58,829 nt of DNA from Nitrospiraceae bacterium (GTDB lineage Bacteria > Nitrospirota > Nitrospiria > Nitrospirales > Nitrospiraceae). The stretch is from NCBI GenBank assembly GCA_919902665.1, contig CAKKRK010000149.1:1-58829 (forward strand), written 5' to 3'. A program made the position numbers and the translations under genes. Under the pieces are notes generated by a model, which searched no databases, had not been told where the DNA came from, and saw only the letters and a list, made by a program, of their open reading frames with translations. How positions within the stretch are numbered: position 1 is the first letter of the stretch; each line of letters opens with the position of its first letter. Of the stretch, positions 3,860-23,320 are shown piece by piece.

Positions 3860-5329
3860 TTACTTGAGTGCCGATACCGCTTGTATGGCGAAGTTCACGA
3901 GTGGGTTGGGATAGATCCCGAAGATGACCACCCCGGCCACCGCGCAGGCCAGCACGATGGAGAGACTTGGTGACATGACCATCCGAGGACTGGTGCTCGA
4001 CAGGTCACTCGGCTCGCGCATGTACATGACCATCACCAGCCTGAGGTAGTAATAGGCTGAGATGACGGCAAAGATGAGCGCCACGGCAGCCAGCCATGGC
4101 AGGCCGGCTTCCACCGCCGACATAAAGACATACAGTTTTCCAATAAATCCTGCGGTCGGAGGAATGCCTGCCAGCGAGACCATAAAGATCAACATGAGCA
4201 GTGCAGCCACAGGATGCCGTTTGGCAAGGCCGGTGAAATCTTCGATGTTGTCTCCTTCGATCCCGCCCTTGCGAAGCATGGCGACGATGGCGAACGCGCC
4301 GAATGTCATGAATGCGTAGAGCGAGAGATAGAGCAGCACGCTGGCGATACCGGACGAGTTTCCCATGTGTCCCGTTGCCACCACGCCGATCAATGCGTAG
4401 CCGGCATGGGCAATGCTTGAGTAGGCCAGCATGCGTTTCACATTCGTCTGCACCAATGCGAGGACATTTCCCAAGATCAGGGTGGCGAGGCACAGGATGA
4501 GGAACATCGCAGACCAGTTGGCTTTCAAGCCACCGAGCCCTTCAATGAACACTCTGAGGAATGCGCCGAAGCTTGCAGCTTTGGCGGCCACCGCCATGAA
4601 GGCGGTGACGGAGGTCGGTGCGCCTTGGTAAACATCCGGCGTCCACATGTGAAACGGCACGACGGCAAGTTTGAACCCGAATCCGACCGTGAGCAGGATC
4701 GTGGCAAACAATAAGAGCGGATCGTCCAAGTTACGACCGGAGATCGCTGCGGCGATCTCCGGAAGTCTGGTGCTTCCGGTCGCTCCATAGAGGAGCGAGA
4801 TGCCGTAGAGGAGGATGCCCGATGAAAATGCTCCCAACACGAAGTACTTGGCCGAGGCTTCCAAGGAGCGAGGCTCCGATCGCTTCAGGCCCGCCATGAC
4901 GTATAGCGAGAGGGACATCAGTTCAGTGCCCAGATAGAGTGTCAATAAATCGGATGATGAGACCATGACCATCATCCCCACGAGCGAGAGTAAGACGAAG
5001 CCGTAATATTCGCCGAAGTACAGCCGCTCTTCCTTCAAGTAGGAATGAGAGAGGAGAATGGTCAGGCCGGTGACGAAGTAGAGGAGCAGTTTCCAGAAGG
5101 CTCCGTACGCATCGATTACGACGAGTCCACTGAAGATTGTGGCGGGAGCCTGTATCTGGGACGCCGTCAATCCCATGCAGACGGCCAGTGTTCCCAGGCT
5201 CAGCCAGACCAAGCCGTCTTTGTTGGATGTCCGCAGCACCGGATCGAGCACGAACACGATGCAGGCTGCCGTGACGATCAGCAACTCCGGTAGGATGAGG
5301 AAGAGGTCTGCCGACGAGAAGGGCATCAT
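3860..5329 (-). CDS. nuoN: NADH-quinone oxidoreductase subunit N
   Basis: A 489-residue antiporter-like membrane subunit of complex I, one of three (L, M, N) that translocate protons. It has about 14 hydrophobic helices. The central region around KLAVVPFHMWTPDVYQGAP is the conserved proton-channel segment with its lysine and histidine, and YLGTELMSLSLYVMAGLKR carries the key glutamate of helix 5. The start ATG overlaps the nuoM stop codon, so the two are translationally coupled. The length is normal for the family. Confidence 0.97.
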   Translation of the reverse strand: MMPFSSADLFLILPELLIVTAACIVFVLDPVLRTSNKDGLVWLSLGTLAVCMGLTASQIQAPATIFSGLVVIDAYGAFWKLLLYFVTGLTILLSHSYLKEERLYFGEYYGFVLLSLVGMMVMVSSSDLLTLYLGTELMSLSLYVMAGLKRSEPRSLEASAKYFVLGAFSSGILLYGISLLYGATGSTRLPEIAAAISGRNLDDPLLLFATILLTVGFGFKLAVVPFHMWTPDVYQGAPTSVTAFMAVAAKAASFGAFLRVFIEGLGGLKANWSAMFLILCLATLILGNVLALVQTNVKRMLAYSSIAHAGYALIGVVATGHMGNSSGIASVLLYLSLYAFMTFGAFAIVAMLRKGGIEGDNIEDFTGLAKRHPVAALLMLIFMVSLAGIPPTAGFIGKLYVFMSAVEAGLPWLAAVALIFAVISAYYYLRLVMVMYMREPSDLSSTSPRMVMSPSLSIVLACAVAGVVIFGIYPNPLVNFAIQAVSALK

Positions 5330-6912
5330 GGTCGGCCCTCAGATGCGGTCTGCGTTTCTTGACTGAACGTCGGTCCAGTCTGTGAGGTGATCCGTTCCAC
5401 AGATGGAGTGAATGGGGTCATCCTAGGCATGACCGACGCGTGTTCAGCAGCTGGAGGGAAGACGCGTGCGATGACCTTCTCTACGCTGGGATGCATGCGA
5501 GTCAGGATGGGGTTCGGGAAGATCCCGATCACGAAGATCAAGACGACAAGCGGCACCACGGTGATCATCTCACGCAGGTTCACATCGCGAAGCTTCGGGA
5601 GCATATGCGGATCGGGGACGCCGAAGGCGACACGTTGGACCATCCAGAGCAAGTAGGCTGCCGCCAGGATAATTCCCAACAATGCAAAGGCCGTGGCGAT
5701 CTTGCTCCAGAGGAAGGCACCTACAAGAATCATAAACTCCCCGACGAAACTGTTTGTGCCGGGCAGCCCCAATGAAGACAATGAAAAAATGACGAGGAAG
5801 GTCGCATACCGTGGCATCGGCTTCGTGAGGCCGATATTGTCGGCGATCTGTCGGCTATGGGTGCGTTCGTAAATCATTCCAACGCAGAGAAAGAGTCCAC
5901 CAGTAGTGATGCCGTGGTTCACCATCTGCATGACGGCGCCTTCGATTCCTTGAATATTAAACATAAAGAGGCCGAGCGTGACAAATCCCATGTGGCTCAC
6001 ACTCGAATAGGCGATGAGTTTTTTTAAGTCGGACTGAGCGAGTGCCATGTAGGCCCCATAGATGATGGCGACAATGGAGAGCGCCACCATCACTGGCGTA
6101 AATGCTTGAGAGGCGTCAGGCAACATCGGCAGGCTGAAACGTAGAAACCCATAGGTGCCCATCTTGAGCAGTACGCTGGCGAGTATGACACTGCCGGCTG
6201 TGGGTGCTTCCACGTGCGCGTCGGGCAGCCATGTATGGAAGGGGAACATGGGAACTTTGACGGCGAATGCGGCGAAGAACGCGAGGAAGAGCCAGAATTG
6301 CAACGAATGGGAATAGGTGCCTTGACTCAATTGAAGAATGTCGAACGTCTGGCCGCCCTGGAAATACAGCACCAAGATCGCGACCAGTAGCAAGACACTG
6401 CCGGCGAGCGTATAGAGCAAGAATTTGATCGCGGCGTAGAGACGATTCGGCCCACCCCAGATCCCGATCAACAGGTACATCGGAATCAGCATCGCTTCCC
6501 AAAAGACATAGAACAGCACGAAATCCAGCGCGGTGAACACGCCGATCATGGCGCTTTCCATAATGAGCAACATGGCCATGAAACTCTGCATCCTGATCTC
6601 GATGGAATGCCATGAGATCAGGATGCAGAGCGGCATCAGGACCGTCGTCATGAGAACGAGCGGGAGGCTGATTCCATCAAGTCCAAGCCGATAATTGATG
6701 GACAGCGACGGGATCCACCGCGCTGATTCCACGAACTGCATCTCACCAGATGATGCATCGAACAACCACCAGAGCGGGAGTGAGATCAGAAGGTCGGCTA
6801 CGGCTACAGCGAGAGCCGTCACCTTGATGGAGCGCTCGTTCACCGCGAAGACCGCAAGGGCCCCGGCCAGTGGGAGGACGACCAGTAATGTGAGCCACGG
6901 AAAGCCGGTCAT
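5326..6912 (-). CDS. nuoM: NADH-quinone oxidoreductase subunit M
   Basis: A 528-residue antiporter-like membrane subunit of complex I. The stretch VKVPMFPFHTWLPDAHVEAP is the conserved lysine-containing channel segment, and FVLFYVFWEAMLIPMYLLIG carries the essential glutamate. I use ATG 6912 (MTGFPWLTLL), which is preceded by AGGAG, rather than the TTG at 6951. Only one nuoM is present, so this is the canonical 13/14-subunit complex rather than the form with two NuoM subunits described in some Nitrospira and other bacteria. Confidence 0.97.
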   Translation of the reverse strand: MTGFPWLTLLVVLPLAGALAVFAVNERSIKVTALAVAVADLLISLPLWWLFDASSGEMQFVESARWIPSLSINYRLGLDGISLPLVLMTTVLMPLCILISWHSIEIRMQSFMAMLLIMESAMIGVFTALDFVLFYVFWEAMLIPMYLLIGIWGGPNRLYAAIKFLLYTLAGSVLLLVAILVLYFQGGQTFDILQLSQGTYSHSLQFWLFLAFFAAFAVKVPMFPFHTWLPDAHVEAPTAGSVILASVLLKMGTYGFLRFSLPMLPDASQAFTPVMVALSIVAIIYGAYMALAQSDLKKLIAYSSVSHMGFVTLGLFMFNIQGIEGAVMQMVNHGITTGGLFLCVGMIYERTHSRQIADNIGLTKPMPRYATFLVIFSLSSLGLPGTNSFVGEFMILVGAFLWSKIATAFALLGIILAAAYLLWMVQRVAFGVPDPHMLPKLRDVNLREMITVVPLVVLIFVIGIFPNPILTRMHPSVEKVIARVFPPAAEHASVMPRMTPFTPSVERITSQTGPTFSQETQTASEGRP

Positions 6913-7002
6913 CTGGACTCCTGCATCAGTAATGCCAAACGCAAACGACAATGTGTGAAATCGGTCATTGCAACGTCAATCTCGCTACATATCCGTAGTG
7001 TC

Positions 7003-8898
7003 TCAAAGAAGGAGATACGCCGTTAACACGACGATCCCCACCGCCATCGCTAAGGCATAGTGCTGGGTCTGCCCACTCTGGACCAGTCGTAACAGCCATC
7101 CCCCCCAGGTGATGGCGCGTGCGATACCGTTGACGGTTCCATCGATCACGTGGACGTCAACATGCTTCCAGAGTTTGGACGCTGCTGCGAGAGTTGGTCG
7201 TACGAATAGGCAATCGTAGGCCTCATCGACATACCATTTGTTCAACGAGCCCCGATAGAGACTGCCCCACTGTCGCGCCAAGCGTTCCGGAAGATCCGGG
7301 TTGAGTACATACACATAATAGGCTGCGGCCATGCCGATCAGACCCATCGCTGTCGCCGCTGCCATAATCATGAGCCCATCCGAGCCATGAGGGACGGCGG
7401 GTTCACCCCCGGTTGAAAAAATGGGTTCTAGGAACGATGGGATGCCGAGATACCCAGTCAGAACACTTAAAACTGCAAGAATGATGAGCGGTGTTGTGAT
7501 TGTTCGTGAGGGCTCGTGGAGGTGCTCCGCATGGTGCGGATCAACATGGGACGTTCCCCAGAAGGTCACGAATACGAGCCGGAAGCTATAGAAGGCGGTC
7601 AGGAGCGCCGTCAGCAGACCTAGGAGCGTTAGTGTCCGACCAAGGTCGCCGGACGACCAGGCAGACACGAGAATGTCATCCTTACTGAAGAATCCAGCGG
7701 TCAGAGGAAAACCGGCAAGCGCCAGCGAACCCACCACAAACGTCCAGTAGGTAATCGGTAACTTGTCTTTGAGACCGCCCATGTGCCTCATATCTTGCTC
7801 ATGGTGCAGCGCAATAATCACAGAGCCGCAGCCTAAAAACAGCAAGGCCTTGAACGCGCCGTGCGTCAATAAGTGATACATGCCGGACGCATAGGCGCCG
7901 AGTCCGCACGCCATGATCATGTACCCGAGCTGACTGACCGTCGAATATGCGACGACCCGTTTGATGTCGGTCTGAGTCAACGCGATCGTGGCGCCGAGGA
8001 CCATCGTCGCCGCGCCTGTAATCGCGACCACGCTCATCGCGGTTGGTGAAAGGTTATAGATCGGGGCGAGACGCGCCACCATGAAGACGCCGGCAGTGAC
8101 CATCGTGGCGGCGTGAATGAGGGCCGAAATCGGCGTCGGTCCTTCCATCGCATCAGGCAGCCAGACGTGGAGCGGAACTTGGGCAGATTTACCGACCGCA
8201 CCAGTGAAGAGCAAGAGTGCGATGAGAGTGAAAACCGAAACCTCCCATGTTCCACCGAACGGGCCGAGGAGGTTCATTGTCACATCAGTCGCCTCATGGA
8301 GGGCAGGAAAGATGTCAAGGTAGTTCAGCGATCCAAAGCTGTACCAGACGAGCAGCAGACCCAGCATGAATCCGAAGTCTCCTACACGATTGACCAGAAA
8401 GGCCTTGGTGGCGGCGGCACAAGCAGAAGCACGCTCGTACCAGTGCCCGATCAACAGATAAGAGCAGAGTCCGACGGCTTCCCAGAACACGAAGAGCTGC
8501 AGCAGGTTATCGGCCAGCACCAACATCAACATGGAGAAGGTGAACAAGGCGATGTAGCCGAAGAAACGGGCATAGCCTGGATCTCCATGCATGTAACCGA
8601 TGGTATAGACGTGTACAAGCGAACTCACACCGGTGACCAGTAGAAGCATCACGGCGGTGAGTCGGTCGATATGAAGACCGATGTGAATGTCCAGAGTTCC
8701 GGATGTCAACCAGGTATAGAGCGGAAGTGAAATGACAGAGCCAGAAGCCACTTCTACAAAGGCCCCCACCGACAAGGCGAGCGACAACAGGACCGCCGGG
8801 ACCGCAACAAGGTGGGCGCGGGCGTTGATGTGCCGGCCAGCCAAGCCAAGGATCAAAAAGGCGGTCAGCGGAAGGAGTGGGATAAGAGCGTAGATCAT
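7003..8898 (-). CDS. nuoL: NADH-quinone oxidoreductase subunit L
   Basis: A 631-residue membrane subunit of complex I, the distal proton pump that also carries the long lateral helix along the membrane arm. The segment KSAQVPLHVWLPDAMEGPTP is the conserved channel lysine region, and LLQLFVFWEAVGLCSYLLIG holds the conserved glutamate. The C-terminal part (GTVNGIARAITWGG to the end) fits the lateral helix and its anchor. There is no clear ribosome-binding site before ATG 8898. The 93 bases between it and nuoK hold an inverted repeat. Confidence 0.97.
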   Translation of the reverse strand: MIYALIPLLPLTAFLILGLAGRHINARAHLVAVPAVLLSLALSVGAFVEVASGSVISLPLYTWLTSGTLDIHIGLHIDRLTAVMLLLVTGVSSLVHVYTIGYMHGDPGYARFFGYIALFTFSMLMLVLADNLLQLFVFWEAVGLCSYLLIGHWYERASACAAATKAFLVNRVGDFGFMLGLLLVWYSFGSLNYLDIFPALHEATDVTMNLLGPFGGTWEVSVFTLIALLLFTGAVGKSAQVPLHVWLPDAMEGPTPISALIHAATMVTAGVFMVARLAPIYNLSPTAMSVVAITGAATMVLGATIALTQTDIKRVVAYSTVSQLGYMIMACGLGAYASGMYHLLTHGAFKALLFLGCGSVIIALHHEQDMRHMGGLKDKLPITYWTFVVGSLALAGFPLTAGFFSKDDILVSAWSSGDLGRTLTLLGLLTALLTAFYSFRLVFVTFWGTSHVDPHHAEHLHEPSRTITTPLIILAVLSVLTGYLGIPSFLEPIFSTGGEPAVPHGSDGLMIMAAATAMGLIGMAAAYYVYVLNPDLPERLARQWGSLYRGSLNKWYVDEAYDCLFVRPTLAAASKLWKHVDVHVIDGTVNGIARAITWGGWLLRLVQSGQTQHYALAMAVGIVVLTAYLLL

Positions 8899-8910
8899 AA
8901 ATGGTCAATC

Positions 8911-8972
8911 GTCATTGGTCAGTCGGTCACTTGGAACAATCAGGGTGAGAGGCATGGTTTTTCACCAATGAC
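8911..8972. repeat. inverted repeat in the nuoK-nuoL gap
   Basis: GTCATTGGT at 8911-8919 is complementary to ACCAATGAC at 8964-8972. Related GGTCAGTC/GGTCAC and GGCTGACT/CGTGAC words lie beside each arm. The structure fills the only sizeable gap in this half of the nuo operon. It could be an mRNA-stability or processing element, or a small dispersed repeat. Its function is unknown. Confidence 0.45.
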
Positions 8973-8991
8973 GGCTGACTCGTGACTTCTT

Positions 8992-9297
8992 TTACCATTT
9001 GAGCAGGTTGAACTCTTCAACATTGATCGTGGATCTTGATCGGTGCAGGGCGATGATAATCGCGAGTCCGACGGCAACCTCCGCTGCGGCCACCGTTAAG
9101 GCAAAAAAGACGAACACTTGACCGCCAAGATCCTGCAGATGGTGGGAGAACGCGACGAAGTTAATGTTGGTGGCGTTCAGCATCAGTTCCACCGACAGCA
9201 GGATGGCAATAATATTGCGCCGGATGAGCACACCCATCACGCCTGTGAAGAAGACGATGGCACTCAAGATGAGGTAGTACGAGATGGGAATGGTCAT
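8992..9297 (-). CDS. nuoK: NADH-quinone oxidoreductase subunit K
   Basis: A 101-residue complex I membrane subunit with three transmembrane helices. The conserved glutamate in [16 protein letters not shown] (helix 2) and the one in [13 protein letters not shown] (helix 3) belong to the proton-transfer chain in the centre of the membrane arm. The length is exactly that of the family. It lies between nuoJ and nuoL in the standard gene order. Confidence 0.97.
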
Positions 9298-9323
9298 TCG
9301 TCACCGCCCGTTTGTGTCATGTG

Positions 9324-9848
9324 TTATGCGTCGTGTTCGCCGATGTCGCGTTTGGCGATGACGATGGCGCCGATCATTGCCACAAGGAGTACTAAGGAGG
9401 CCACCTCGAACGGGAATAAATAGGTTGAAAAAAGTGTCTTGCCGATGGCCAACGTATTGTTGGCGGTGATGGCCTCATGCGGTTCAGACTGGAGCGATGG
9501 ACTCCCCGTGTTGAGTGCGCCGGCCCCTCCGGAGAGAAGCAATATGGACTCAATGAACAATGGAATGCAGACCACTCCTGCAATCAGCCATTGGCTGTGG
9601 TAACGGTCGTCTTGCGTGACATTGAGTATCATAACGACGAACAGATACAGCACGAGAATGGCCCCGGCATAGACGATGATCTGCACGGCCGCGAGAAATT
9701 CGGCATGGAGTGTGATGAAGAGTCCCGCGACATGGAAAAACATGACCAAGAGCGAAAGCGCACTGTAGACAGGATTTCTCAACGCCACCACTAGAATGGA
9801 GGTGATGGCGATCATTCCGGCGAAGTATCCAAAAAACAGCTGCGACAT
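9324..9848 (-). CDS. nuoJ: NADH-quinone oxidoreductase subunit J
   Basis: A 174-residue complex I membrane subunit with five transmembrane helices. The helix-3 segment VQIIVYAGAILVLYLFVVMIL is the conserved part that rearranges during turnover. The start MSQLFFGYF is preceded by AGGAACC. Spacing to nuoK is 26 bases. Confidence 0.96.
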   Translation of the reverse strand: MSQLFFGYFAGMIAITSILVVALRNPVYSALSLLVMFFHVAGLFITLHAEFLAAVQIIVYAGAILVLYLFVVMILNVTQDDRYHSQWLIAGVVCIPLFIESILLLSGGAGALNTGSPSLQSEPHEAITANNTLAIGKTLFSTYLFPFEVASLVLLVAMIGAIVIAKRDIGEHDA

Positions 9849-9936
9849 GGATGGTTCCTGGGTTAGCGGCCGACCTGGGCTAGCCTAGCGCTATGGTGAT
9901 GCAGTCATTACTCGTCTAATGAGTATTCTTTGAGAG

Positions 9937-10503
9937 TCAGTCCGGTTTTGGTGGCACGTGTTTGAATGCCACGTTGAAGAACGCGACGTTTGGGTGTTGC
10001 AGCTCCAGACGCTTCTCTTGGACCGGAAACGAACGGTCGCCGATCGCGAGCAATTGTTGTTTATTCAGGTGCAGCTGCCGCTTGTCGTAGACCGCCCATT
10101 CAAATTCTCTCGTCATGCCCAGCGCATCGACGGGACAGGCATCCACGCACATCCCGCAGAACAGGCAGCGAGTCATGTCCATGTAATATTCTTTTGAATA
10201 TCGCTTCGTCGGTTCGCCAGGCACTTCGGCGCTGACGACTCGGATGACGCGCGACGGACAGGCGGCCTCACAGAGGTCGCATCCCACGCACTTCTCGGTC
10301 CCATCATCGTATCGGAGCAGCGCGAGCATGCCTCGATAGTTGTCCGGCAGCGTGCGCTTCTCATGAGGATATTGCAGCGTGACCGGACGGTAATTTAATA
10401 GGTGAGATAGCGTTGCTTTCATGCCGACGAGGATCTCATAGAAGGTAATGGTTTTGAGCCATGCAGATAGGCTCAGACGTTTGGTGCTTGTTGTCGATAC
10501 CAT
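9937..10503 (-). CDS. nuoI: NADH-quinone oxidoreductase subunit I (two 4Fe-4S clusters)
   Basis: A 188-residue iron-sulfur subunit of the peripheral arm. Two ferredoxin motifs, CVGCDLCEAACPS and CLFCGMCVDACPV, bind clusters N6a and N6b on the electron path to quinone. The open frame extends upstream into nuoH, but the subunit proper begins at ATG 10503 (MVSTTSTKRLSLS), 14 bases after the nuoH stop. The earlier frame is only a shadow of nuoH. Confidence 0.96.
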   Translation of the reverse strand: MVSTTSTKRLSLSAWLKTITFYEILVGMKATLSHLLNYRPVTLQYPHEKRTLPDNYRGMLALLRYDDGTEKCVGCDLCEAACPSRVIRVVSAEVPGEPTKRYSKEYYMDMTRCLFCGMCVDACPVDALGMTREFEWAVYDKRQLHLNKQQLLAIGDRSFPVQEKRLELQHPNVAFFNVAFKHVPPKPD

Positions 10504-10517
10504 ATCGGTCTCGTGCA

Positions 10518-11594
10518 CTACTTCATCTGTTGGTAGATAAATACCGCAATGGCCGTCACGACGATGTTCCCTAACGCAATGGGCAACAGCACCTTCCAGC
10601 CGAACCTCATCAGCTGATCGTATCGCAATCTCGGCAACGTGGCTCTCAGCCAAAAGAAGAGAAATAAAAGCGAGTAGGTCTTGACCGCAAACCACATCGT
10701 GTTTTCGATCCACGCCAGAGATGGCGCGCCGATGAACGCCATAATCGTTCCGGGATATGGCGCATTCCAGCCACCGAGAAATAGTGCGGCAGCGACACAC
10801 GAGACCAGGACCATATTGGCGTATTCGGCAAGGAAGAAAAAGGCGAATCGCAAGCCGCTGTACTCGGTAAAGAAACCGGCGACGAGCTCGCTCTCCGCTT
10901 CCGGCAGATCGAACGGGACCCGGTTGGTTTCCGCTACCGCTGAGATCACATAGATGACAAACGCGAAAATTTGGGGGGCCGGTAATGCGAAGAGATACCA
11001 ATGCCAAAATCCTCCGGCCTGGGCATCGGTGATTGTCACCAGGCTGAGTGAACCGCCCAGAATCAACACGCCGACAATGGACAGTCCCACATTGAGCTCG
11101 TAACTGATGATCTGTGCCGCCGACCGTAGCCCACCGAGCAAGGAGTATTTACTATTGGACGACCATCCTCCCAGGATGATGCCGTAGGCCCCGAGCGACG
11201 CGAAGGCCAAGATGTATAGAATGCCGATATTGATGTCGCTGATGACAAACGGTCTTACGGTGATGCCGCCGACCTCAAACGTCTGATTGGGACCCCACGG
11301 AATGACCGCAAATCCGATGAATGAAGGAATTAAACAGAGGATTGGGGCCGTGGTGAACAGAAACTTGTTGGCCCCGGCAGGGATAATGTCTTCCTTGAAG
11401 AAGAGCTTGATGGCATCCGCAACGGGTTGGAGAATGCCGTAGGGCCCCACTTCCATCGGACCCATGCGGTCCTGCATCCAGCCGAGGACTTTTCGTTCTG
11501 CAAGGGTGAGGATGAGGACCGTGATGACCACGATGCCCATGACTGCGGCGATCTGGGTCAGGGAGATAGCGAGACGCAATCCGAATTCAGTCAC
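10518..11594 (-). CDS. nuoH: NADH-quinone oxidoreductase subunit H
   Basis: A 358-residue membrane subunit that, with NuoB and NuoD, forms the quinone-binding chamber. The conserved LAERKVLGWMQDRMGP and VPFDLPEAESELVAGFFTEYSG are present; the acidic loop of the latter lies at the quinone site and the start of the proton path. The start is GTG 11594 with GAGGAG upstream. Confidence 0.97.
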   Translation of the reverse strand: MTEFGLRLAISLTQIAAVMGIVVITVLILTLAERKVLGWMQDRMGPMEVGPYGILQPVADAIKLFFKEDIIPAGANKFLFTTAPILCLIPSFIGFAVIPWGPNQTFEVGGITVRPFVISDINIGILYILAFASLGAYGIILGGWSSNSKYSLLGGLRSAAQIISYELNVGLSIVGVLILGGSLSLVTITDAQAGGFWHWYLFALPAPQIFAFVIYVISAVAETNRVPFDLPEAESELVAGFFTEYSGLRFAFFFLAEYANMVLVSCVAAALFLGGWNAPYPGTIMAFIGAPSLAWIENTMWFAVKTYSLLFLFFWLRATLPRLRYDQLMRFGWKVLLPIALGNIVVTAIAVFIYQQMK

Positions 11595-11641: not shown

Positions 11642-14308
11642 TCACGCCACCTTCATCATGGACACCGTCGCCGTCCGGAACGACGGCACATGGGTGATCG
11701 GATCGATAGCACATTCAAATAGTTGGACGGCCGCTTGCCCAAAGTGAGACGGGAACCAGGCCGTTCCTTGTGGGACCCGTTCCATAATTTTGACCTCGGT
11801 TGTCATTTCCCCGGAGGTGCTGGAGAGGCGGACACGATCGCCATCTGACAAGGCAAAGCGTGCGGCGTCAGATGGACTGATACGGAGCCGACCACTTCCT
11901 TCGACTTGTAACAATCCCTTTGATCGTGTGGATAATTTTCCAGAATGGAAGAGACTCTGTGCCAATTCTAGTCGTACGGTTCCATCCGGCCTGGACGCGC
12001 GTGAGATCGGGTGGTACCTCGATGCGAGGTCACGCTGATAGCCATCGGTGAGATAGCGGTCCACGGCCGAGTGATCCACTTTGGGCGGCAACGGTGTGGG
12101 CCCCAGCGAGCTATAGCCAGGAATGAGGCTTCGAATTTCCTTCAGGATTTCCTTGCTCTCGGCATATTCCATGGGTGAGTTCAATAAGATAGACAGCGCG
12201 GAGAAGATCTCCCAGTCGGGGCGACTGTCTCCGACGGGCTCGATCGCTGGACGAACAGCCTGCACATGACCCTCGGTATTGGTAAACGTTCCATGTTTTT
12301 CCAGGGAACTCGCGGCCGGTAATACGACGTGAGCCAAGGCGGCCGTCTCCGTTAAAAATAGCTCCTGGCATACCAAGAGATCAAGATTGCGCAGCGAGGC
12401 CTCGGCATGGATCGCCGCAGGGAGGCTTCCGACTGGATTCTCTCCAACGATGAACATGGCCTTGAGAGATCCCGCGCGGGCTCGCTCCAACATCTCGATG
12501 AGGGACGCTCCTTTGTCAGTTGGAAGTTCGCCTTTCCATTGTTTCGCGATCCGTTCACGCTCTGTGTCGTTGGTGATGGGCTGTGCTCCGGGAAGCAGCT
12601 CGGTGACGGTTCCCATTTCGATCGCGCCCTGGTCGTTATTTTCTTCGGCGAGCGGGGCAAATCCACAGCCAGGCGCATCCAACTTCCCTGTCAGAAGAAG
12701 GAGATCGAGGAGGGTCAAACACCCACTGTAGCCCTGTTCGCTTCGCAACAAGAGCTGCCCGGCCACGATCACGACCCGGCGCGCTCCTGCCGCCGCTTTG
12801 GCTGCCCTCTCAAACGCATCCGGCTCGATCCCGGTGGCTGCCTGGAGGTTTTGCCACGAGATCTGTTGTAGTGCGCTCGTCATGGCGTTGACATACGTCG
12901 GATGTCGTTGCGCGAGGTCTGGTTGTGTCAAATTCTGTTCGAGGACGGCCTTCACCAGACCGACGATCGCATGGTGCGTGTCGCTGGTCGGAATACGGAA
13001 ATGATGGTGCGAAAGATTGGCGATATTGCTCATCGTGTCGACGACGGGTTCCAGTGATTCGATCGTGATCAGCGTCGCCTGGCGCTTCTTGACCGCCTCT
13101 TTCACTTTGAGGCCGGTGATGGGATTGGTCTCGGTGATGTTCGTGCCGACGAGGATGAGGACATCCGCGTCCAGAATGTCGTCGAAGGTGACGGTCCATC
13201 GATGCGTCCCTTGCACGAGTTGCATGGCCTGTAGGCCATTGACGTGGCCATAACGCGCGCTGCTGTCGATGTGGTTGGTCCCGATCGCCATACGGAGAAA
13301 TTTCTGAAACAGATACAGTTCCTCGTTGGTGCACCGCCCAGAAATCAGCCCACCGAAGCTCGGTCCACCATGGGCAGCTTTAATCTCGTTCACACGATCC
13401 GCAACATATTCCAGGGCTTCTTCCCATGTGACTTGCACGAGTGCGCCGTGACGCCGAATGAGCGGATGAGTGAGCCGCTGGGGATGACTGGCCGCATGGA
13501 ATCCAAAAAATCCACGAGCACACAGGTCGCCGTTGTTGCGTCCCGCTCCATGTGCCGAGTTCACCTCAATGAGTTCCTGTTCCTTCGTCTGGACGGTCAT
13601 TTGACACCCATCTCCGCAGTAGCCGCAGATGGTTTCGGCTCGTTTCAACATCCAGGGTCGATATTCGTACATGGACAGCCGGCTGGTAATCGCGCCAACC
13701 GGGCAGATCTGGACGCAGCCTCCGCAGAACTCGCAATCGAGCGGGTGAAAGCCGAAGTGCTTGATTTCCGTCATGGTGCCGCGACCGACCGGGGCCAGTG
13801 CTTTGACGTCCATGACCTCATCGCAGTATCGGACGCAGCGGAGGCACTGCACGCAGCGATTCATCTGTGTTTCGATGAGCGGGCTAAAATACTCCTTTTG
13901 GAAGACGCGCTTAGTTTCAGTGAACCGACTGGTTGCTGTGTACTGGTGAGAAAAGTCTTGGAGGTCGCATTTTCCACCCTGATCGCAGACCGGGCAATCG
14001 AGTGGATGGTTGGCGAGGATGAACTCGAGCACGGATTTGTGCGCGTCGTTGACCACCGTGGTGGCCGTCCGTACGTTCATGCCTTCATCAACCGGCGTGC
14101 TGCACGCCGTTTGCAACTTGGGCACCTTTTCAATTTCAACCAGGCACATGCGGCAATTGGCATCTGGTTTGAGTTTCGGGTGATAGCAAAAATGCGGAAT
14201 CATGACGCCGACGCGACGCGCCGCTTCGATCACCAATGTCCCTTTGGGGACATGGACCGTCATGCCGTCGATCATTATGCGAACCGTCTGTGCCGTGGGG
14301 GTCGTCAT
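11642..14308 (-). CDS. nuoG: NADH-quinone oxidoreductase subunit G
   Basis: An 888-residue iron-sulfur subunit of the NADH-dehydrogenase arm. The N-terminal 2Fe-2S domain (CRMCLVEIEKVPKLQTAC) is followed by the His-Cys 4Fe-4S site (HPLDCPVCDQGGKCDL) and two further motifs, CVQCLRCVRYCDE and CEFCGGCVQICPVGA. CGYCGDGCQM with a later LCARG supplies four cysteines for the distal N7 cluster, which only some bacteria have. The remaining 600 residues are a molybdopterin-oxidoreductase-type domain without an obvious cofactor, plus a C-terminal dinucleotide-binding barrel. The start overlaps the nuoF stop (ATGA). Confidence 0.96.
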   Translation of the reverse strand: MTTPTAQTVRIMIDGMTVHVPKGTLVIEAARRVGVMIPHFCYHPKLKPDANCRMCLVEIEKVPKLQTACSTPVDEGMNVRTATTVVNDAHKSVLEFILANHPLDCPVCDQGGKCDLQDFSHQYTATSRFTETKRVFQKEYFSPLIETQMNRCVQCLRCVRYCDEVMDVKALAPVGRGTMTEIKHFGFHPLDCEFCGGCVQICPVGAITSRLSMYEYRPWMLKRAETICGYCGDGCQMTVQTKEQELIEVNSAHGAGRNNGDLCARGFFGFHAASHPQRLTHPLIRRHGALVQVTWEEALEYVADRVNEIKAAHGGPSFGGLISGRCTNEELYLFQKFLRMAIGTNHIDSSARYGHVNGLQAMQLVQGTHRWTVTFDDILDADVLILVGTNITETNPITGLKVKEAVKKRQATLITIESLEPVVDTMSNIANLSHHHFRIPTSDTHHAIVGLVKAVLEQNLTQPDLAQRHPTYVNAMTSALQQISWQNLQAATGIEPDAFERAAKAAAGARRVVIVAGQLLLRSEQGYSGCLTLLDLLLLTGKLDAPGCGFAPLAEENNDQGAIEMGTVTELLPGAQPITNDTERERIAKQWKGELPTDKGASLIEMLERARAGSLKAMFIVGENPVGSLPAAIHAEASLRNLDLLVCQELFLTETAALAHVVLPAASSLEKHGTFTNTEGHVQAVRPAIEPVGDSRPDWEIFSALSILLNSPMEYAESKEILKEIRSLIPGYSSLGPTPLPPKVDHSAVDRYLTDGYQRDLASRYHPISRASRPDGTVRLELAQSLFHSGKLSTRSKGLLQVEGSGRLRISPSDAARFALSDGDRVRLSSTSGEMTTEVKIMERVPQGTAWFPSHFGQAAVQLFECAIDPITHVPSFRTATVSMMKVA

Positions 14309-15609
14309 CGTCTTGCCACCGGTTCAGGTCTGATTAAATTCGCGGCTTCTGCTTCATTGATGAGATCGACATATTCCTGTCGCCAATGCTTCATCGTGCT
14401 TTGGATTGGAGCGACTTCCGCGTCGCCGAAGGCACAGACCGTACGGCCTGCGATGTTTTTGCATAGATCCAATAAGGTTTCAAGATCCTCCATCCGGCCA
14501 CGTTTCGCAAAGATTCTGCGCATGGTCTGGACGAGCCAGGAACTGCCTTCTCGGCACGGGCTACATTTCCCACAGGACTCATGGTAGAAAAATTCCATCA
14601 GCCGAAGCGCCGCCCAGACCATGCTGGTGCCTTCTTCCATCACCGTCACGCCGCCGGAACCCAGCATCGATCCCGCCGCCGCGACATGTTCGAAATCTAG
14701 TTTCACGTCGAGATGAGCCGGAGTCAGAAACGGCGCTGACGCGCCACCGGGAATAAAGGCTTTCAGGGGCTTATCCGACCGCATGCCGCCAGCATACTCG
14801 TACACTAATTCTCGGACGGTCATGCCCATCGGAACTTCGTAATTGCCTGGTCGTTTCACATGTCCACTCACACAGAAGACTCGAGTGCCGGTGCTCTTCG
14901 GCGGCGACCCAATCGCCGCAAACCATTCGGGGCCTCGGGTGATGATGTGGGGGAGGTTCGCCAGCGTCTCGACGTTGTTGACGACGGTCGGCTTGTTGTA
15001 GAGCCCATGCGTGGCGGGAAACGGCGGCTTAATGCGAGGAAGCCCACGTTTACCCTCAAGCGATTCCAATAGGGCGGTTTCCTCACCGCAGATGTAGGCG
15101 CCTGCTCCGCGATGCACCCACACGTCGACATTGATGCCGGAACCTAAAATATTCTTGCCGATATACCCGGCGACTCTCGCTTCGCCGATAGCCTGTTCCA
15201 AGATTTTTGAGCCCAGGACCATTTCTCCACGGATATAGATGTAGGCGGTTTCCGAACCGATGGCATAGCAGGCCAACACAATGCCTTCTAAGACTTGATG
15301 GGGGTCCCGCTCCATGAGCTGCCGGTCCTTGAATGTGCCCGGCTCGCTCTCGTCGGCATTGCAGCACAGGTAGCGGGGTCCTTGATAATCTTTCGGGAGG
15401 AATCCCCACTTCACACCAGTCGGGAACCCCGCGCCACCTCGACCGCGAAGGCCTGATTTTCGGACGATGGCCGTGACGTCTGCTGGGGCGATCTTCCCGA
15501 GTGTATTGCGCAAGGCTTGATAGCCGCCCGTCTTTTCATAGTCGGTCAGAGACCCGGTATAGCCGGGTTGCATCATATTTTTCAGAAGAATGAGTTCGTG
15601 TTTCGGCAT
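14305..15609 (-). CDS. nuoF: NADH-quinone oxidoreductase subunit F (FMN, NADH site)
   Basis: A 434-residue flavoprotein that oxidises NADH. The NADH-binding glycine-rich GLRGRGGAGFPTGVKW and the FMN-binding region around CNADESEPGTFKDR are present. Near the C-terminus CGKCSPCREGSSW plus a distant CAFGD bind the 4Fe-4S cluster N3. It forms the electron-input module with NuoE and NuoG. Confidence 0.97.
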   Translation of the reverse strand: MPKHELILLKNMMQPGYTGSLTDYEKTGGYQALRNTLGKIAPADVTAIVRKSGLRGRGGAGFPTGVKWGFLPKDYQGPRYLCCNADESEPGTFKDRQLMERDPHQVLEGIVLACYAIGSETAYIYIRGEMVLGSKILEQAIGEARVAGYIGKNILGSGINVDVWVHRGAGAYICGEETALLESLEGKRGLPRIKPPFPATHGLYNKPTVVNNVETLANLPHIITRGPEWFAAIGSPPKSTGTRVFCVSGHVKRPGNYEVPMGMTVRELVYEYAGGMRSDKPLKAFIPGGASAPFLTPAHLDVKLDFEHVAAAGSMLGSGGVTVMEEGTSMVWAALRLMEFFYHESCGKCSPCREGSSWLVQTMRRIFAKRGRMEDLETLLDLCKNIAGRTVCAFGDAEVAPIQSTMKHWRQEYVDLINEAEAANLIRPEPVARR

Positions 15610-15681: not shown

Positions 15682-16209
15682 TCACGTCTTCACCGGTTCC
15701 GGCCACATGAATGGCCCACTTTTCAGCGGGCTGGTTCCAGTGGATCGGAGATCGGTCAAAATCCGGTCCAGTTTGCTTTCGGTCAATTGCTCGTAATAGT
15801 CCTCGTTGATTTGCATCATAGGGCCGGTCCCGCAAGCCGCCAAACACTCCACCACACTGAGACTAAACAGGCCATCCGTTGTCAATTCCCCCGGCCCAAT
15901 GCCCAACTTCGTCTTGATCCATTCGATCACGGTATCTGAGCCGACAAGGGCGCACATAAGGGATTTGCACACTTGGATATGGAACTTGCCCACGGGTTTC
16001 AGATTAAACATCGTGTAAAAGGTGATCGTCTCATAGACTTGGGGAGGTGTCAGTCTGAGAAGATGAGCGATCTCCTGCATCGCCGACTCGGTCACATAGC
16101 CCTGATCACGCTGGGCGACGTAGAGGAGTGGGATTAACGCGGAGCGCATAACCGGATAGCGTGACAGGATGTCCGAGATTTCGTCTTTGTATTTCTCTAA
16201 GAACGTCAT
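15682..16209 (-). CDS. nuoE: NADH-quinone oxidoreductase subunit E
   Basis: A 175-residue thioredoxin-fold subunit carrying the 2Fe-2S cluster N1a. The four ligands are in VCKSLMC and ECLAACG. It pairs with NuoF in the NADH-oxidising module. The N-terminal helical region (IPLLYVAQRDQGYVT) is typical of the family. Confidence 0.96.
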   Translation of the reverse strand: MTFLEKYKDEISDILSRYPVMRSALIPLLYVAQRDQGYVTESAMQEIAHLLRLTPPQVYETITFYTMFNLKPVGKFHIQVCKSLMCALVGSDTVIEWIKTKLGIGPGELTTDGLFSLSVVECLAACGTGPMMQINEDYYEQLTESKLDRILTDLRSTGTSPLKSGPFMWPEPVKT

Positions 16210-16282: not shown

Positions 16283-18034
16283 TCACCGATCACATTCCCC
16301 CATGACCACATCATAGGTCCCAAAAATCGTGATGATATCGGAAATCAAATAGCCACGCGCCATATGGTCGAATGCCCCCAGGTGAATGAAAGAAGGAGAC
16401 CGTATTTTCAGCCGGTAGGGGCGGGGGCTCCCGTCGCTGATGATGAAAAACCCCAATTCTCCCTTCGGTGCTTCGGTCGCGCAATACGTTTCCCCTTTCG
16501 GGGGTTTAAACCCTTGCGTGAAGATGACGAAATGGTGAATCAAGCTTTCCATGTCACGCATCACTTGCAGTTTGGGTGGAGGAATGTATTGCGGTATGTC
16601 GGCGATGATGGGTCCAGGCGGCATCTGGTCGAGACATTGCGAGATGATCCGCGCGCTCTGGCGCATCTCTTCGACACGAATCCAATAGCGATCGTAGGTG
16701 TCGCCATTTTTTCCGACCGGCACGTCCCAGTCCACCTTATGGTAGACCCCGTAGGGCTCGAGTTTACGTACATCGTAGGACACGCCTGATCCCCGCAAGG
16801 TTGGGCCGGTCATGCCGAAATTGATGGCGTCCTCTCCGGAGATGACGGCGATATGCTTGGTTCGTCCCAGCCAAATCCGATTGCTCGCGAGCAGCGAATC
16901 GTACTCATCCACCTTCTGGGGGAAGGTCTCCAAGAACTCCTTCAGACGGGTCACTAATTCCGGAGTGAAGTCGCTATCTACGCCGCCGATCCGATAATAA
17001 TTCAAAGTCAGCCTGGCACCACACAGACGTTCGAACATGTCGAGCAAGGTTTCCCGCTCGCGAAACGTCCAGAAGAAGACCGTCATGGCTCCGATATCCA
17101 AGGCCTGGGCGCCCAACCAGAACAGATGTCCCAAAATGCGCTGCATCTCTGCGACCAGGGTGCGGATATACTCCGCTCGCTCAGGCACGGTGATATCGAG
17201 GAGTTTCTCAACGGCCCGGACATAGGCGTAGTTATTCGCCATCGCGCAGACATAGTCGAGCCGGTCGGTATGAGGGATGATCTGCATGTAGGCCAGACCT
17301 TCGGCCAGTTTTTCCACTCCTCGATGGAGATAGCCGAGATCCGGTGTCGCCTTGACGATTCGTTCTCCATCCAGCTCTAGGACAACCCGCACCACTCCAT
17401 GCGTGCTGGGATGTTGCGGGCCCATGTTCAACAACAGTTCTTCCCGCCGGGTTGATGAAGAGCTGTTCGGCTCCAACAGGAATACCTTCCTTTCGGCTTC
17501 GGACACTTCACTTTCGATCTGCGCCACCGGTGGTTCATCCAGGCGAGGGATAAAGTCGAACTGACTGCGCCAGCCGCGGCCTTCTGTCGGGAAATCCTTC
17601 CGTAACGGATAGCCTTCCGCATAGTCTTCCGGCAGAAGGATGCGGCGTAGGTCCGGGTGGCCTGTAAACCGAATTCCCATCATGTCGTACACTTCCCGCT
17701 CTAAGAATTCCGCGCCGCGCCAGACGCTTGTCACGGAATCCAGTGACGGGTTGCCTTCGGTGATCCGTGCTTTCAGGCGGATTCGTTTGCCGTGTGGGAG
17801 CGATAATAAGAGATAGATGACTTCAAACCGCTGTTGATCGGATGGATAGTCAGCGGAGCAGATATCGGTGATGTGGTCAAAGCACGCCTCGGGGTCGTCG
17901 TGCAAAAACCGGGCGATCTCCAAGATTCTTGATGCAGCGACATGGACGGTCACTTCCGATCGGGCCGTGTCGACATCGACGGAAAGGACCGCTTCCGGGA
18001 ACTTCTTGAGTAAGGTTTCAATGAGGGATTGCAT
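16283..18034 (-). CDS. nuoCD: NADH-quinone oxidoreductase fused subunits C and D
   Basis: A 583-residue fusion of the 30-kDa (NuoC, about residues 1-185) and 49-kDa (NuoD, about 205-583) subunits. NuoC motifs are seen in EREVYDMMGIRFTGHPDLRR. NuoD begins with LLNMGPQHPSTHGVVR, whose HPSTHG loop contacts quinone, and ends with the family-typical GECDR. The segment LGYLHRGVEKLAEG contains the conserved arginine near cluster N2 that is a candidate target of MidA-type methylation. The fusion is known from enterobacteria and others, so it is not novel in itself. Confidence 0.96.
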   Translation of the reverse strand: MQSLIETLLKKFPEAVLSVDVDTARSEVTVHVAASRILEIARFLHDDPEACFDHITDICSADYPSDQQRFEVIYLLLSLPHGKRIRLKARITEGNPSLDSVTSVWRGAEFLEREVYDMMGIRFTGHPDLRRILLPEDYAEGYPLRKDFPTEGRGWRSQFDFIPRLDEPPVAQIESEVSEAERKVFLLEPNSSSSTRREELLLNMGPQHPSTHGVVRVVLELDGERIVKATPDLGYLHRGVEKLAEGLAYMQIIPHTDRLDYVCAMANNYAYVRAVEKLLDITVPERAEYIRTLVAEMQRILGHLFWLGAQALDIGAMTVFFWTFRERETLLDMFERLCGARLTLNYYRIGGVDSDFTPELVTRLKEFLETFPQKVDEYDSLLASNRIWLGRTKHIAVISGEDAINFGMTGPTLRGSGVSYDVRKLEPYGVYHKVDWDVPVGKNGDTYDRYWIRVEEMRQSARIISQCLDQMPPGPIIADIPQYIPPPKLQVMRDMESLIHHFVIFTQGFKPPKGETYCATEAPKGELGFFIISDGSPRPYRLKIRSPSFIHLGAFDHMARGYLISDIITIFGTYDVVMGECDR

Positions 18035-18071: not shown

Positions 18072-18128
18072 AGCTGACAGGCGCGAGTATGGTACCTGCC
18101 AGCTTGTCAGCATGCGTACCTGTCAGCT
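18072..18128. repeat. palindromic element overlapping the nuoB stop codon
   Basis: AGCTGACAGG at 18072-18081 pairs perfectly with CCTGTCAGCT at 18119-18128. Further copies of the same word occur around it (CAAGCTGACA at 18054-18063, CTTGTCAGC at 18103-18111). The distal arm covers the end of nuoB, including part of its stop codon, and the element fills the nuoB-nuoCD gap. A stem-loop in the polycistronic mRNA is likely. Confidence 0.5.
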
Positions 18129-18606
18129 ACTTCACGAAGACTTTCTCGCGCTGAATCTTCTCCTGTAACTTCAATAGTCCGTCCAGCAAGGCCTCTGGTC
18201 TCGGTGGACACCCGGGTACATAGACGTCAACCGGTATGATTTGATCCACACCCTGAACGACCGCGTAGCTGTTGTAATGATTGCCCGAGGTCGCGCACGA
18301 GCCCATGCAGATCACGTACCGAGGTTCTGGCATCTGGTCGTAAATCCGTCGAATGACCGGGGCCATTTTGCGCGAGACCGTTCCCGCGACGATCATGAGA
18401 TCCGATTGCCTGGGGGAGGCGCGAAAGACCCCGGCGCCGAAGCGGTCCAGGTCGTATCGGGAAGAGACGCTCGCGATCATCTCGATGGCGCAGCAAGCAA
18501 GTCCGAACGTCATGGGCCATAGCGCCGACTTCCGGGCCCAGTTGACGACCGCGTCCAGATTCGTTGTTATGATGTTCGCGTCAAACTGGCGCTCTAACAG
18601 ACTCAC
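18127..18606 (-). CDS. nuoB: NADH-quinone oxidoreductase subunit B
   Basis: A 159-residue peripheral-arm subunit carrying N2, the last iron-sulfur cluster before quinone. The ligands are the adjacent cysteines in GLACCAIEM, the one in [11 protein letters not shown] and the one in [13 protein letters not shown]. The start is GTG 18606. It follows nuoA by 28 bases. Confidence 0.97.
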
Positions 18607-18634: not shown

Positions 18635-19006
18635 TCAATCCCACTCCAACGCTCCTTTTTTCCATGCGTACCAGAACCCCACCACCAGTATGGCGATGAA
18701 CAGGATCATCTCCACTAATCCAACCAGTCCGAGACTGGTGAAGGCAATGGCCCAGGGAAACATAAAGACAATTTCAATATCGAAGATCACAAACAGCATC
18801 GCGATGACGTAATACCGCATTGGAAACTGGACACGGGCGTCCTGAAACAGCGGGCTCCCGCTCTCGTAGGGGGCCAACTTTGCCCGATAGGGCTGATTTG
18901 GACGGACGAACCAGCCGAGCAAGAGCGTCAGTGTCCCCAAGGCGATGCCCACGCCGATGAACATGAGGATCGGGACATAGTTATCCGGAACGGCTGTGTC
19001 GCCCAT
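18635..19006 (-). CDS. nuoA: NADH-quinone oxidoreductase subunit A
   Basis: A 123-residue complex I membrane subunit with three transmembrane helices. The conserved YESGSPLFQDARVQFPMRYY loop and the acidic IFDIEIVFMFPWA helix are diagnostic. It is the first nuo gene in the order and follows midA by 53 bases. Confidence 0.96.
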   Translation of the reverse strand: MGDTAVPDNYVPILMFIGVGIALGTLTLLLGWFVRPNQPYRAKLAPYESGSPLFQDARVQFPMRYYVIAMLFVIFDIEIVFMFPWAIAFTSLGLVGLVEMILFIAILVVGFWYAWKKGALEWD

Positions 19007-19059
19007 TCAGACCTCAGAACACGTTGCGGAGCGTTGGTGATGCCGTCATGCGTAGTTCC

Positions 19060-20235
19060 TCAGGCAGCAGATTGCGTTGCCAGTGCTGAACCAAAGAATG
19101 GCTTATACTGCAAACCGTCAAGCTCAGGGCGCACGAGGCCCTTGTGCTGGATGAGTACCTTGAAGGTCGTGCCCATCCCGTTCGGCCTAAGCAGATGAAT
19201 CGCTGCGTTGAACTCCGGGCTGTCCTGTTCCAACTTCGCAATCATCTGTTCGACATCGAGTCCCATGAGAAAACTCATCTGGTTCGTGAAGCCGGTCGTC
19301 TGGAGTCCCTGTTTTTCACCGGTCGTCGCTAAGCACGAAAAATCCACATGGGCGGTCATATCTTGATCTCCCACCCGGAGGAACGGATCTTCATTGACGG
19401 ATTGCTGCGAGTAGCAGAGGAATGTCCCACCTTTTCGGTCGGACCGATAGAGGTCCTGTGCCGTGTGGCCATAATCGATGGTGAGTGCAAATCCACGATC
19501 CAGATGTTGAGCGACTTGCTTCATCCAATCTAGGGCTCGGAGATTGATCTCGGTTCGATAGCCTTCTGGCCACTCAGGACTCAACCGGTCTAGGTGCACG
19601 GCGAGGGCATCGGAGGACAGCGGTTTGAGACATTCAAGGAACTGTCCATCTCGATAGTCCACCCAGAGTTCCTTGATTCCTTCTGCTGTGACCTGGACGC
19701 GGTGGACGGGAAACGAATCGACGAGCTCATTGCTCAAGAGCAAACCAGTCAGACCATGAGGAGCCACAGTCGGAAGATCCTCTGCCCATGTCAGGAGGGC
19801 TGCTCGATCCAGCCAAGGAGCTAGGTTTCTGCGCTGCATCTCGCGCATGGCCGGGCTTCGGTCGATCAGGACATACCGAAGATGCTGGAAAAACGAACGG
19901 TAGCGATGCGCGCACGTTTCTAGAATATGCTTGGCCAGTAGGCCTTTGCCAGGCCCCATTTCAACGATGGTAAAGGAAGAGGGTTGGCCGAGTAATCGGT
20001 ACATTTGTTCGGCTTGTGCGGCCAGAGCTTGCCCAAGGATGGGATGGACATCTGAGCTCGTGTAAAAATCACCTCGCCAGCCGATCCGTTCGTGGGCTGG
20101 TGGAGTACTACGCATGTAATAGCCGAATTGTGGGTGGTACAGCGCCAACTCCATGAAGCGTGCGAACGGAATCGGGCCTGACGTAGCGATCTCAGAGGCA
20201 ATAGTAGCAACAAGTTCCGGGTGCCCTGTGCTCAC
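19060..20235 (-). CDS. midA: SAM-dependent methyltransferase, MidA/NDUFAF7 family
   Basis: A 391-residue class I methyltransferase of the family once called DUF185 (COG1565). The N-terminal GPIPFARFMELALYHPQFGYY is the family signature. FTIVEMGPGKGLLAKHIL is the glycine-rich SAM loop, and LLLSNELVDSFPVHRV is the later conserved block. The eukaryotic member NDUFAF7 dimethylates an arginine of NDUFS2, the NuoD homologue, and is needed for complex I assembly. Here the gene lies directly upstream of nuoA on the same strand, which suggests the same job in this bacterium. The start is GTG 20235 with GGAG upstream; the frame stays open to 20277. Confidence 0.85.
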   Translation of the reverse strand: MSTGHPELVATIASEIATSGPIPFARFMELALYHPQFGYYMRSTPPAHERIGWRGDFYTSSDVHPILGQALAAQAEQMYRLLGQPSSFTIVEMGPGKGLLAKHILETCAHRYRSFFQHLRYVLIDRSPAMREMQRRNLAPWLDRAALLTWAEDLPTVAPHGLTGLLLSNELVDSFPVHRVQVTAEGIKELWVDYRDGQFLECLKPLSSDALAVHLDRLSPEWPEGYRTEINLRALDWMKQVAQHLDRGFALTIDYGHTAQDLYRSDRKGGTFLCYSQQSVNEDPFLRVGDQDMTAHVDFSCLATTGEKQGLQTTGFTNQMSFLMGLDVEQMIAKLEQDSPEFNAAIHLLRPNGMGTTFKVLIQHKGLVRPELDGLQYKPFFGSALATQSAA

Positions 20236-20327
20236 GGAAAGCTCCAAATTCACCAGCCTAGATGAAAAAATCGACACCCCTAGCCTATGGGCAACGTTAG
20301 CCCATTGCGTAGTGTCAAAGGGGCCGT

Positions 20328-20357
20328 AGAGTAGCCTTCGGAAGTGCGTTAAGTCAA
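20328..20357 (-). promoter_or_regulatory. sigma70-type promoter for the midA-nuo operon
   Basis: Read on the minus strand, TTGACT (20357-20352) and TACTCT (20333-20328) are separated by 18 bases. Transcription would start near 20321, giving an untranslated leader of about 85 bases before the midA GTG at 20235. No other convincing promoter was seen ahead of nuoA, so this one probably drives the whole complex I cluster. Confidence 0.5.
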
Positions 20358-20568
20358 GGCAGAGTCAGGGGAAAGAGGCGATATCGTTATGTATGAATGT
20401 ATACAAGATGACGTGCGATTGCGAGTTCTGTGATGGCTTGCCAGGGGAAAGGAAACCGTGTCTGCCGAAGCTCTACAAGGGCTGGCCGACGGTCTATATG
20501 GGCGTGTGCGAGAAAGTGGAGATGGGTCAGTAGTGGCAGGGATCTATCGCATCATGACATGGTCGAGG

Positions 20569-20586
20569 TCTGGCCTCACGGCCAGA
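20569..20586 (-). terminator. hairpin downstream of secA
   Basis: A perfect 7-bp stem (TCTGGCC/GGCCAGA) with a GTGA tetraloop lies about ten bases past the secA stop. It lacks a T-run in the direction of secA, so it may protect the 3' end or work with Rho rather than act as a classical intrinsic terminator. Confidence 0.4.
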
Positions 20587-20596
20587 GCGGCACTCT

Positions 20597-23320
<2,724 letters not shown>

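Follow-up and report, generated by a model that had tools for sequence, protein, structure and literature searches.

The window, by which we mean the whole 58,829-nt contig that was analysed, is part of a Nitrospira genome, and the MidA protein encoded on it is 91-99% identical to those of its nearest named relatives, all of which are Nitrospira genomes. The genes and features that concern us here are the following.

3860-11594, minus strand: nuoH, I, J, K, L, M and N, in that order (ORFs named from the sequence by eye)
11642-14308, minus strand: nuoG (TIGR01973)
14305-15609, minus strand: nuoF (TIGR01959)
15682-16209, minus strand: nuoE (PF01257)
16283-18034, minus strand: nuoCD, encoding fused C and D subunits of 583 aa, the presumed substrate (PF00346, PF00329, TIGR01962 NuoD)
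17321-17323, minus strand: codon of NuoCD Arg238 in the motif LHRG, the proposed methylation target (by alignment)
18127-18606, minus strand: nuoB (PF01058)
18635-19006, minus strand: nuoA (PF00507)
19060-20235, minus strand: midA, NDUFAF7/MidA family, PF02636 protein arginine methyltransferase (Pfam, PDB relatives, AF2 model, motifs)
19060-20277, minus strand: longer midA ORF, 405 aa, from an alternative upstream GTG start at 20277
20236-20596, minus strand: secA-midA intergenic region, the expected place of a promoter (no promoter recognised)
20597-23320, minus strand: secA, the upstream neighbour of midA (Pfam SecA domains)

NuoB is the subunit that binds cluster N2. The complex I genes form a canonical nuo operon, complete from nuoA to nuoN, in order and on a single strand (H-N by eye), and the nuoH-N ORFs, used as queries, recover the identical order in other nuo clusters. 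The original prediction placed midA at 19060-20235 without giving a strand, and these boundaries held, as the GTG at 20235 on the minus strand is preceded by GGAG (by eye) and is the better-supported start. The midA stop lies 53 bases from the nuoA start at 19006, both genes being on the minus strand, and secA lies 319 bases from the longer midA ORF on the same strand. The proposal that midA shares its strand and a probable promoter with nuoA-N was borne out for the strand; a common promoter was not demonstrated, and a scan of the minus strand in 18950-20700 found neither a sigma-70-like site, a pattern that Nitrospira promoters may not fit, nor a terminator. A shared midA-nuo promoter is suggested only by the short midA-nuoA gap. 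A hairpin 3' of secA was considered as a terminator and rejected, as it folds no better than shuffled sequences (z -0.57). secA is probably a separate transcription unit, because its spacing from midA varies among loci.

The assignment of the gene to the MidA/NDUFAF7 family is secure. PF02636 matches residues 85-331 with an E value of 4.1e-67 and 226.7 bits against a cut-off of 23.3, covering profile positions 2-249 of 249, and an NCBIfam profile search of the midA product matched no model. A sequence comparison with proteins of known structure pointed to 4f3n from Burkholderia, 1zkd from Rhodopseudomonas and 5ztz, the MidA of Dictyostelium. A Foldseek search with the AlphaFold2 model (pLDDT 87.5) returned COG1565/MidA structures as the best matches, well above every other methyltransferase. 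Among the closest were the COG1565 proteins of Burkholderia thailandensis (4f3n and 4g67, TMq 0.83-0.84), with that of Rhodopseudomonas palustris (1zkd, TMq 0.73-0.75) in the same group, although all three are titled uncharacterised or putative and their titles give no substrate. Dictyostelium MidA shares the fold of the model (5ztz, TMq 0.78-0.80; 5ztz_A, E 1.5e-26, TMq 0.80) but is only 24% identical in the structural alignment, and has Trp where His296 is invariant in 24 bacterial relatives. The window protein carries E92-x-G-x-G-x-G98, N169-E170-x-x-D173 and D254-Y255-G256, whose residues are invariant in 24 homologues and invariant or nearly so in 74; ExGxGxG is the S-adenosylmethionine motif, and NExxD and DYG are further motifs of the family. 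Human NDUFAF7 and Dictyostelium discoideum MidA thus share with the Nitrospira protein the Pfam family, the main motifs and a conserved target arginine in the NuoD homologue, whereas the Nitrospira gene differs in sitting in a complex I operon and in having a fused NuoCD as its presumed substrate. Elsewhere in the genome PF02636 matches just one protein, a distant, methyltransferase-like paralogue of 479 aa on another contig (C212; L002:1249-2688, E 3.3e-7), and most of the Nitrospirales genomes surveyed likewise have a second PF02636 match.

The arginine of LHRG in NuoCD, named in the original prediction as the target, was upheld by alignment. Arg238, in the context KATPDLGYLHRGVEKLAE, aligns gap-free with ovine 49-kDa LHRGTEK and is equivalent to Arg85 of the mammalian 49-kDa subunit, the residue that NDUFAF7 dimethylates. 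According to the available part of PMC3750175, Arg85 is symmetrically dimethylated in the bovine peptide KCDPHIGLLHRGTEK, the same arginine is modified in human, Pichia and Paracoccus denitrificans, and the modification is absent in E. coli. Available portions of further papers describe NDUFAF7 as the enzyme in human cells and as a complex I assembly factor (PMC3829151), and Arg85 as its target (PMC3750175, PMC3829151, PMC9006661). The closest known bacterial case is the symmetrically dimethylated Arg65 of P. denitrificans, the same modification on an equivalent residue, but in an alphaproteobacterium and with the enzyme not named in the available part of PMC3750175. Because this residue was already published from mass spectrometry, dimethylation of the NuoD arginine in bacteria is known and not new; the suggestion that it occurs in bacteria therefore stands in print for P. 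denitrificans and fails for E. coli, whose residue is unmodified (PMC3750175, in part). For alphaproteobacteria, a review also refers to structural and bioinformatic evidence in a 2018 paper (PMC9006661, in part).

The genome to which the window belongs encodes three NuoD copies. The second is part of a 2M-type complex I (contig C93) and has LHRG like the copy in the window; a third nuo cluster (contig C15, L410) encodes a fused NuoCD with the odd site FHHRSQEK. The sites are thus LHRG, LHRG and HHRS, and the arginine expected as target of a PF02636 enzyme is present in all three. This set agrees with the published description of Nitrospirales in the available part of PMC12342949, in which we found no mention of midA.

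The linkage of midA to nuo, from which the original prediction argued, proved to be regular among the relatives of the window. nuoA follows midA in 49 of 50 Nitrospirota loci from a collection scan (L003-L052), the exception (L038) having nuoH instead. In 48 of the 49 loci with nuoA the gap is 7-185 nt, and the 49th (L050) contains a fragmented midA. secA is present in 43 of the 50 loci, at 183 to 5494 nt from midA, and since this distance varies so widely while the midA-nuoA gap stays short, the midA-nuoA arrangement is not a matter of chance. Judged by eye from genome coordinates, midA is linked to nuo in 46/46 genomes of the window's family (45 by nuoD coordinates, G115 by nuoH), in 9/10 of the order's second family, where the one exception lies near a contig end, and in 4/9 from the remaining families of the class (G130, G168, G194, G142), with 5 kb between the genes in G174. 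Other Nitrospirota classes include 100 midA genomes, and midA is near nuoD in none of the 46 for which both coordinates were listed. In G115, a 2.0-Mb Nitrospira genome (L407, contig C49), midA is followed directly by nuoH-I-J, nuoA-G being missing there; its only NuoD is of the 2M type with LHRG, so that midA was kept despite the loss of nuoA-G at the locus. L038 lacks nuoA-G beside midA in a matching layout, and both may be misassemblies. An apparent loss of nuoA-F at L008 was dismissed, as the sequence contains a run of N.

Further arrangements occur in Chloroflexota and Pseudomonadota. Among 121 Chloroflexota genomes, 47 have PF02636 (two of them weakly, G280 and G330), and midA is followed by nuoA-B-C-D-H in four loci, of which one has a gap of 2 kb, preceded by nuoB-D-I-F-G in two, and divergent from nuoA in two more. 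From Pseudomonadota, 28 midA loci were picked because of a nuoD-midA spacing of 13-14 kb or because they scored highly. In 17 of them nuoN lies upstream of midA on a common strand, no more than 350 bases from the midA match in 14 and at 503, 533 and 1134 bases in the rest. This order is consequently present in at least 17 of the 96 Pseudomonadota midA genomes. In 16 genomes of this phylum nuoD lies upstream of midA on a common strand, at a distance of about 13-14 kb; in 79 of the 95 with both genes midA is not near nuoD, although contig breaks may hide some cases. The collection scan also gave 13 loci from outside Nitrospirota (L053-L065), none of which shows a nuo gene beside midA. In one of these, from the alphaproteobacterium Bradyrhizobium (L059:4905-5930), midA follows lgt. 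On a MidA tree of 74 rows, from which four duplicates were dropped and which contains neither nuoN-midA Pseudomonadota loci nor eukaryotic sequences, nuo linkage requires 7 changes; the three Chloroflexota arrangements form three clades away from Nitrospiria, within which the linkage could be one event. In the paper listings and passages that were searched we found no report of midA-nuo linkage, though a 2018 Cell Reports paper on MidA may cover some of this.

The two genes also tend to occur together. Across 439 genomes of three phyla, nuoD is present in 305/308 with midA versus 113/131 without it (pooled Fisher p 8e-8, in tests that ignore relatedness). Counting genomes with both proteins, MidA alone, NuoD alone and neither, we obtained 95, 1, 15 and 9 in Pseudomonadota (120 genomes, PF02636 in 96 and PF00346 in 110; Fisher p 1e-6, NuoD threshold 1e-60) and 47, 0, 67 and 7 in Chloroflexota (p 0.04, threshold 1e-40). 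The corresponding counts of 163, 2, 31 and 2 in Nitrospirota (198 genomes, PF02636 in 165 and PF00346 in 194; threshold 1e-3) are not significant as presence and absence alone (p 0.13). The genomes with midA and no nuoD match are G127 (98% complete), G119 and G430. Of the 15 Pseudomonadota that encode NuoD but lack midA, 12 show a long NuoD frame (593-612 aa), probably a fused NuoCD of the E. coli type, which is in line with the unmodified residue of E. coli. Long NuoD frames are also seen in some Pseudomonadota midA genomes, e.g., G346 (621) and G361 (773).

The residue at the NuoD site follows the presence of midA in the raw counts. In Nitrospirota with midA it is Arg in 66 of the 66 NuoD read and Thr in none, a sample that favours the canonical type because for most genomes the reading was confined to the best NuoD, and in those without midA it is Arg in 35 and Thr in 7 of 42. 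The site was read in 109 of the 114 Chloroflexota genomes with nuoD. An HR[GS] NuoD is found in 44/45 genomes with midA (G212 has Thr only) and in 16/62 without; the latter comprise 19 with Thr only, 27 with Thr and Arg, and 16 with Arg only, and most of their Arg sites that lack a following Gly or Ser have Asn. Thus, of the 20 genomes in which Thr is the residue of the only NuoD read, 19 lack midA, a count that includes G255, whose second NuoD was left unread. The two genomes with a weak PF02636 match, listed apart in these counts and scored as lacking midA in the tree contrast, have Thr together with Arg-Asn. Many Chloroflexota carry two NuoD types (L227-L376), a Thr type with LHTG and an Arg type; where midA is absent, the site of the latter is often LHRNHEK, LHRNHEQ or LHRNHDK. 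In Pseudomonadota, all 30 NuoD read, the 30 best matches, have Arg, and one of these genomes lacks midA; L185 had no readable site. HRG persists in many genomes that have no midA, which shows that the arginine can be present in the absence of the enzyme. We also considered whether Thr/Arg and midA covary as independent events and rejected this: the raw counts are strong, but a contrast on a NuoD tree, made without five NuoD-like rows lacking a clean motif and the duplicate L377, yielded 2-3 independent pairs, of which almost all were tied or pointed the same way, and this is not significant. Both the midA/nuoD and the midA/residue association rest on few independent evolutionary changes.

Taken as a whole, the enzyme family, the linkage and the LHRG target that had been proposed are supported, and judging from sequence the most likely reading is that Nitrospira MidA is a genuine complex I arginine methyltransferase. 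That linkage and co-occurrence recur in two other phyla strengthens the functional inference. It is unlikely that MidA instead methylates another protein or a nucleic acid and lies near nuo through shared regulation of respiratory genes: nuo linkage recurs in different arrangements in three phyla, it is accompanied by co-occurrence with nuoD and by the residue association, and direct evidence exists in human cells (PMC3829151, available part). This reading can nevertheless draw on Wolbachia MidA, for which DNA methylation upon expression in E. coli is reported in the available part of PMC12455994, on the three genomes with midA and no nuoD match, and on the Alphaproteobacteria, in which the modified arginine is known and the single midA neighbour looked at is lgt. 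An assembly chaperone of NuoCD for which methylation is incidental or absent would suit any linkage to complex I biogenesis as well as the role of NDUFAF7 as an assembly factor (PMC3829151, in part), but we consider it improbable, since the methyltransferase motif residues are so well conserved in the 74 homologues and a methyltransferase-deficient mutant fails to rescue Dictyostelium (PMC9006661, in part). A frozen ancestral accident without functional meaning could account for Nitrospiria by one event, and secA is a frequent neighbour too; since midA remains no more than 185 nt from nuoA, whereas secA may lie as much as 5.5 kb away, and since midA-nuo pairing is seen at other positions in other phyla, we regard this as very improbable.

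We therefore return to MidA as the S-adenosylmethionine-dependent arginine methyltransferase of NuoCD Arg238, aiding complex I assembly, which the sequence comparisons make quite probable. midA and the complex I genes would be carried on a common transcript, and MidA would bind newly made NuoCD and symmetrically dimethylate Arg238, which adjoins the future cluster N2 site in NuoB; the dimethylated residue may then help NuoCD and NuoB to join. MidA probably also serves the 2M-type complex I and perhaps the third copy. What appears to be new is a broad genomic case for MidA as a complex I gene in several phyla. MidA-dependent methylation of the NuoD arginine may further be an ancient and general step in the maturation of bacterial complex I, extending far beyond Proteobacteria, with a methylated HR[GS] class and an unmethylated class of His-Thr-Gly or His-Arg-Asn, and with multi-copy bacteria methylating some copies only, a generalisation that we take seriously and stop short of favouring.

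If this is true, the assembly step performed by NDUFAF7 on NDUFS2 in human cells has bacterial counterparts encoded beside their substrate. The present example is from Nitrospira, which is believed also to operate complex I in the reverse direction. The surroundings of cluster N2, perhaps also its redox potential, would then differ between methylated and unmethylated classes of complex I. The presence of midA would then predict which bacterial complex I is a good model of the mitochondrial one, which in this respect E. coli would not be, and the comparison would add a testable split of complex I into an Arg-Gly/Ser class and a class with Thr or Arg-Asn.
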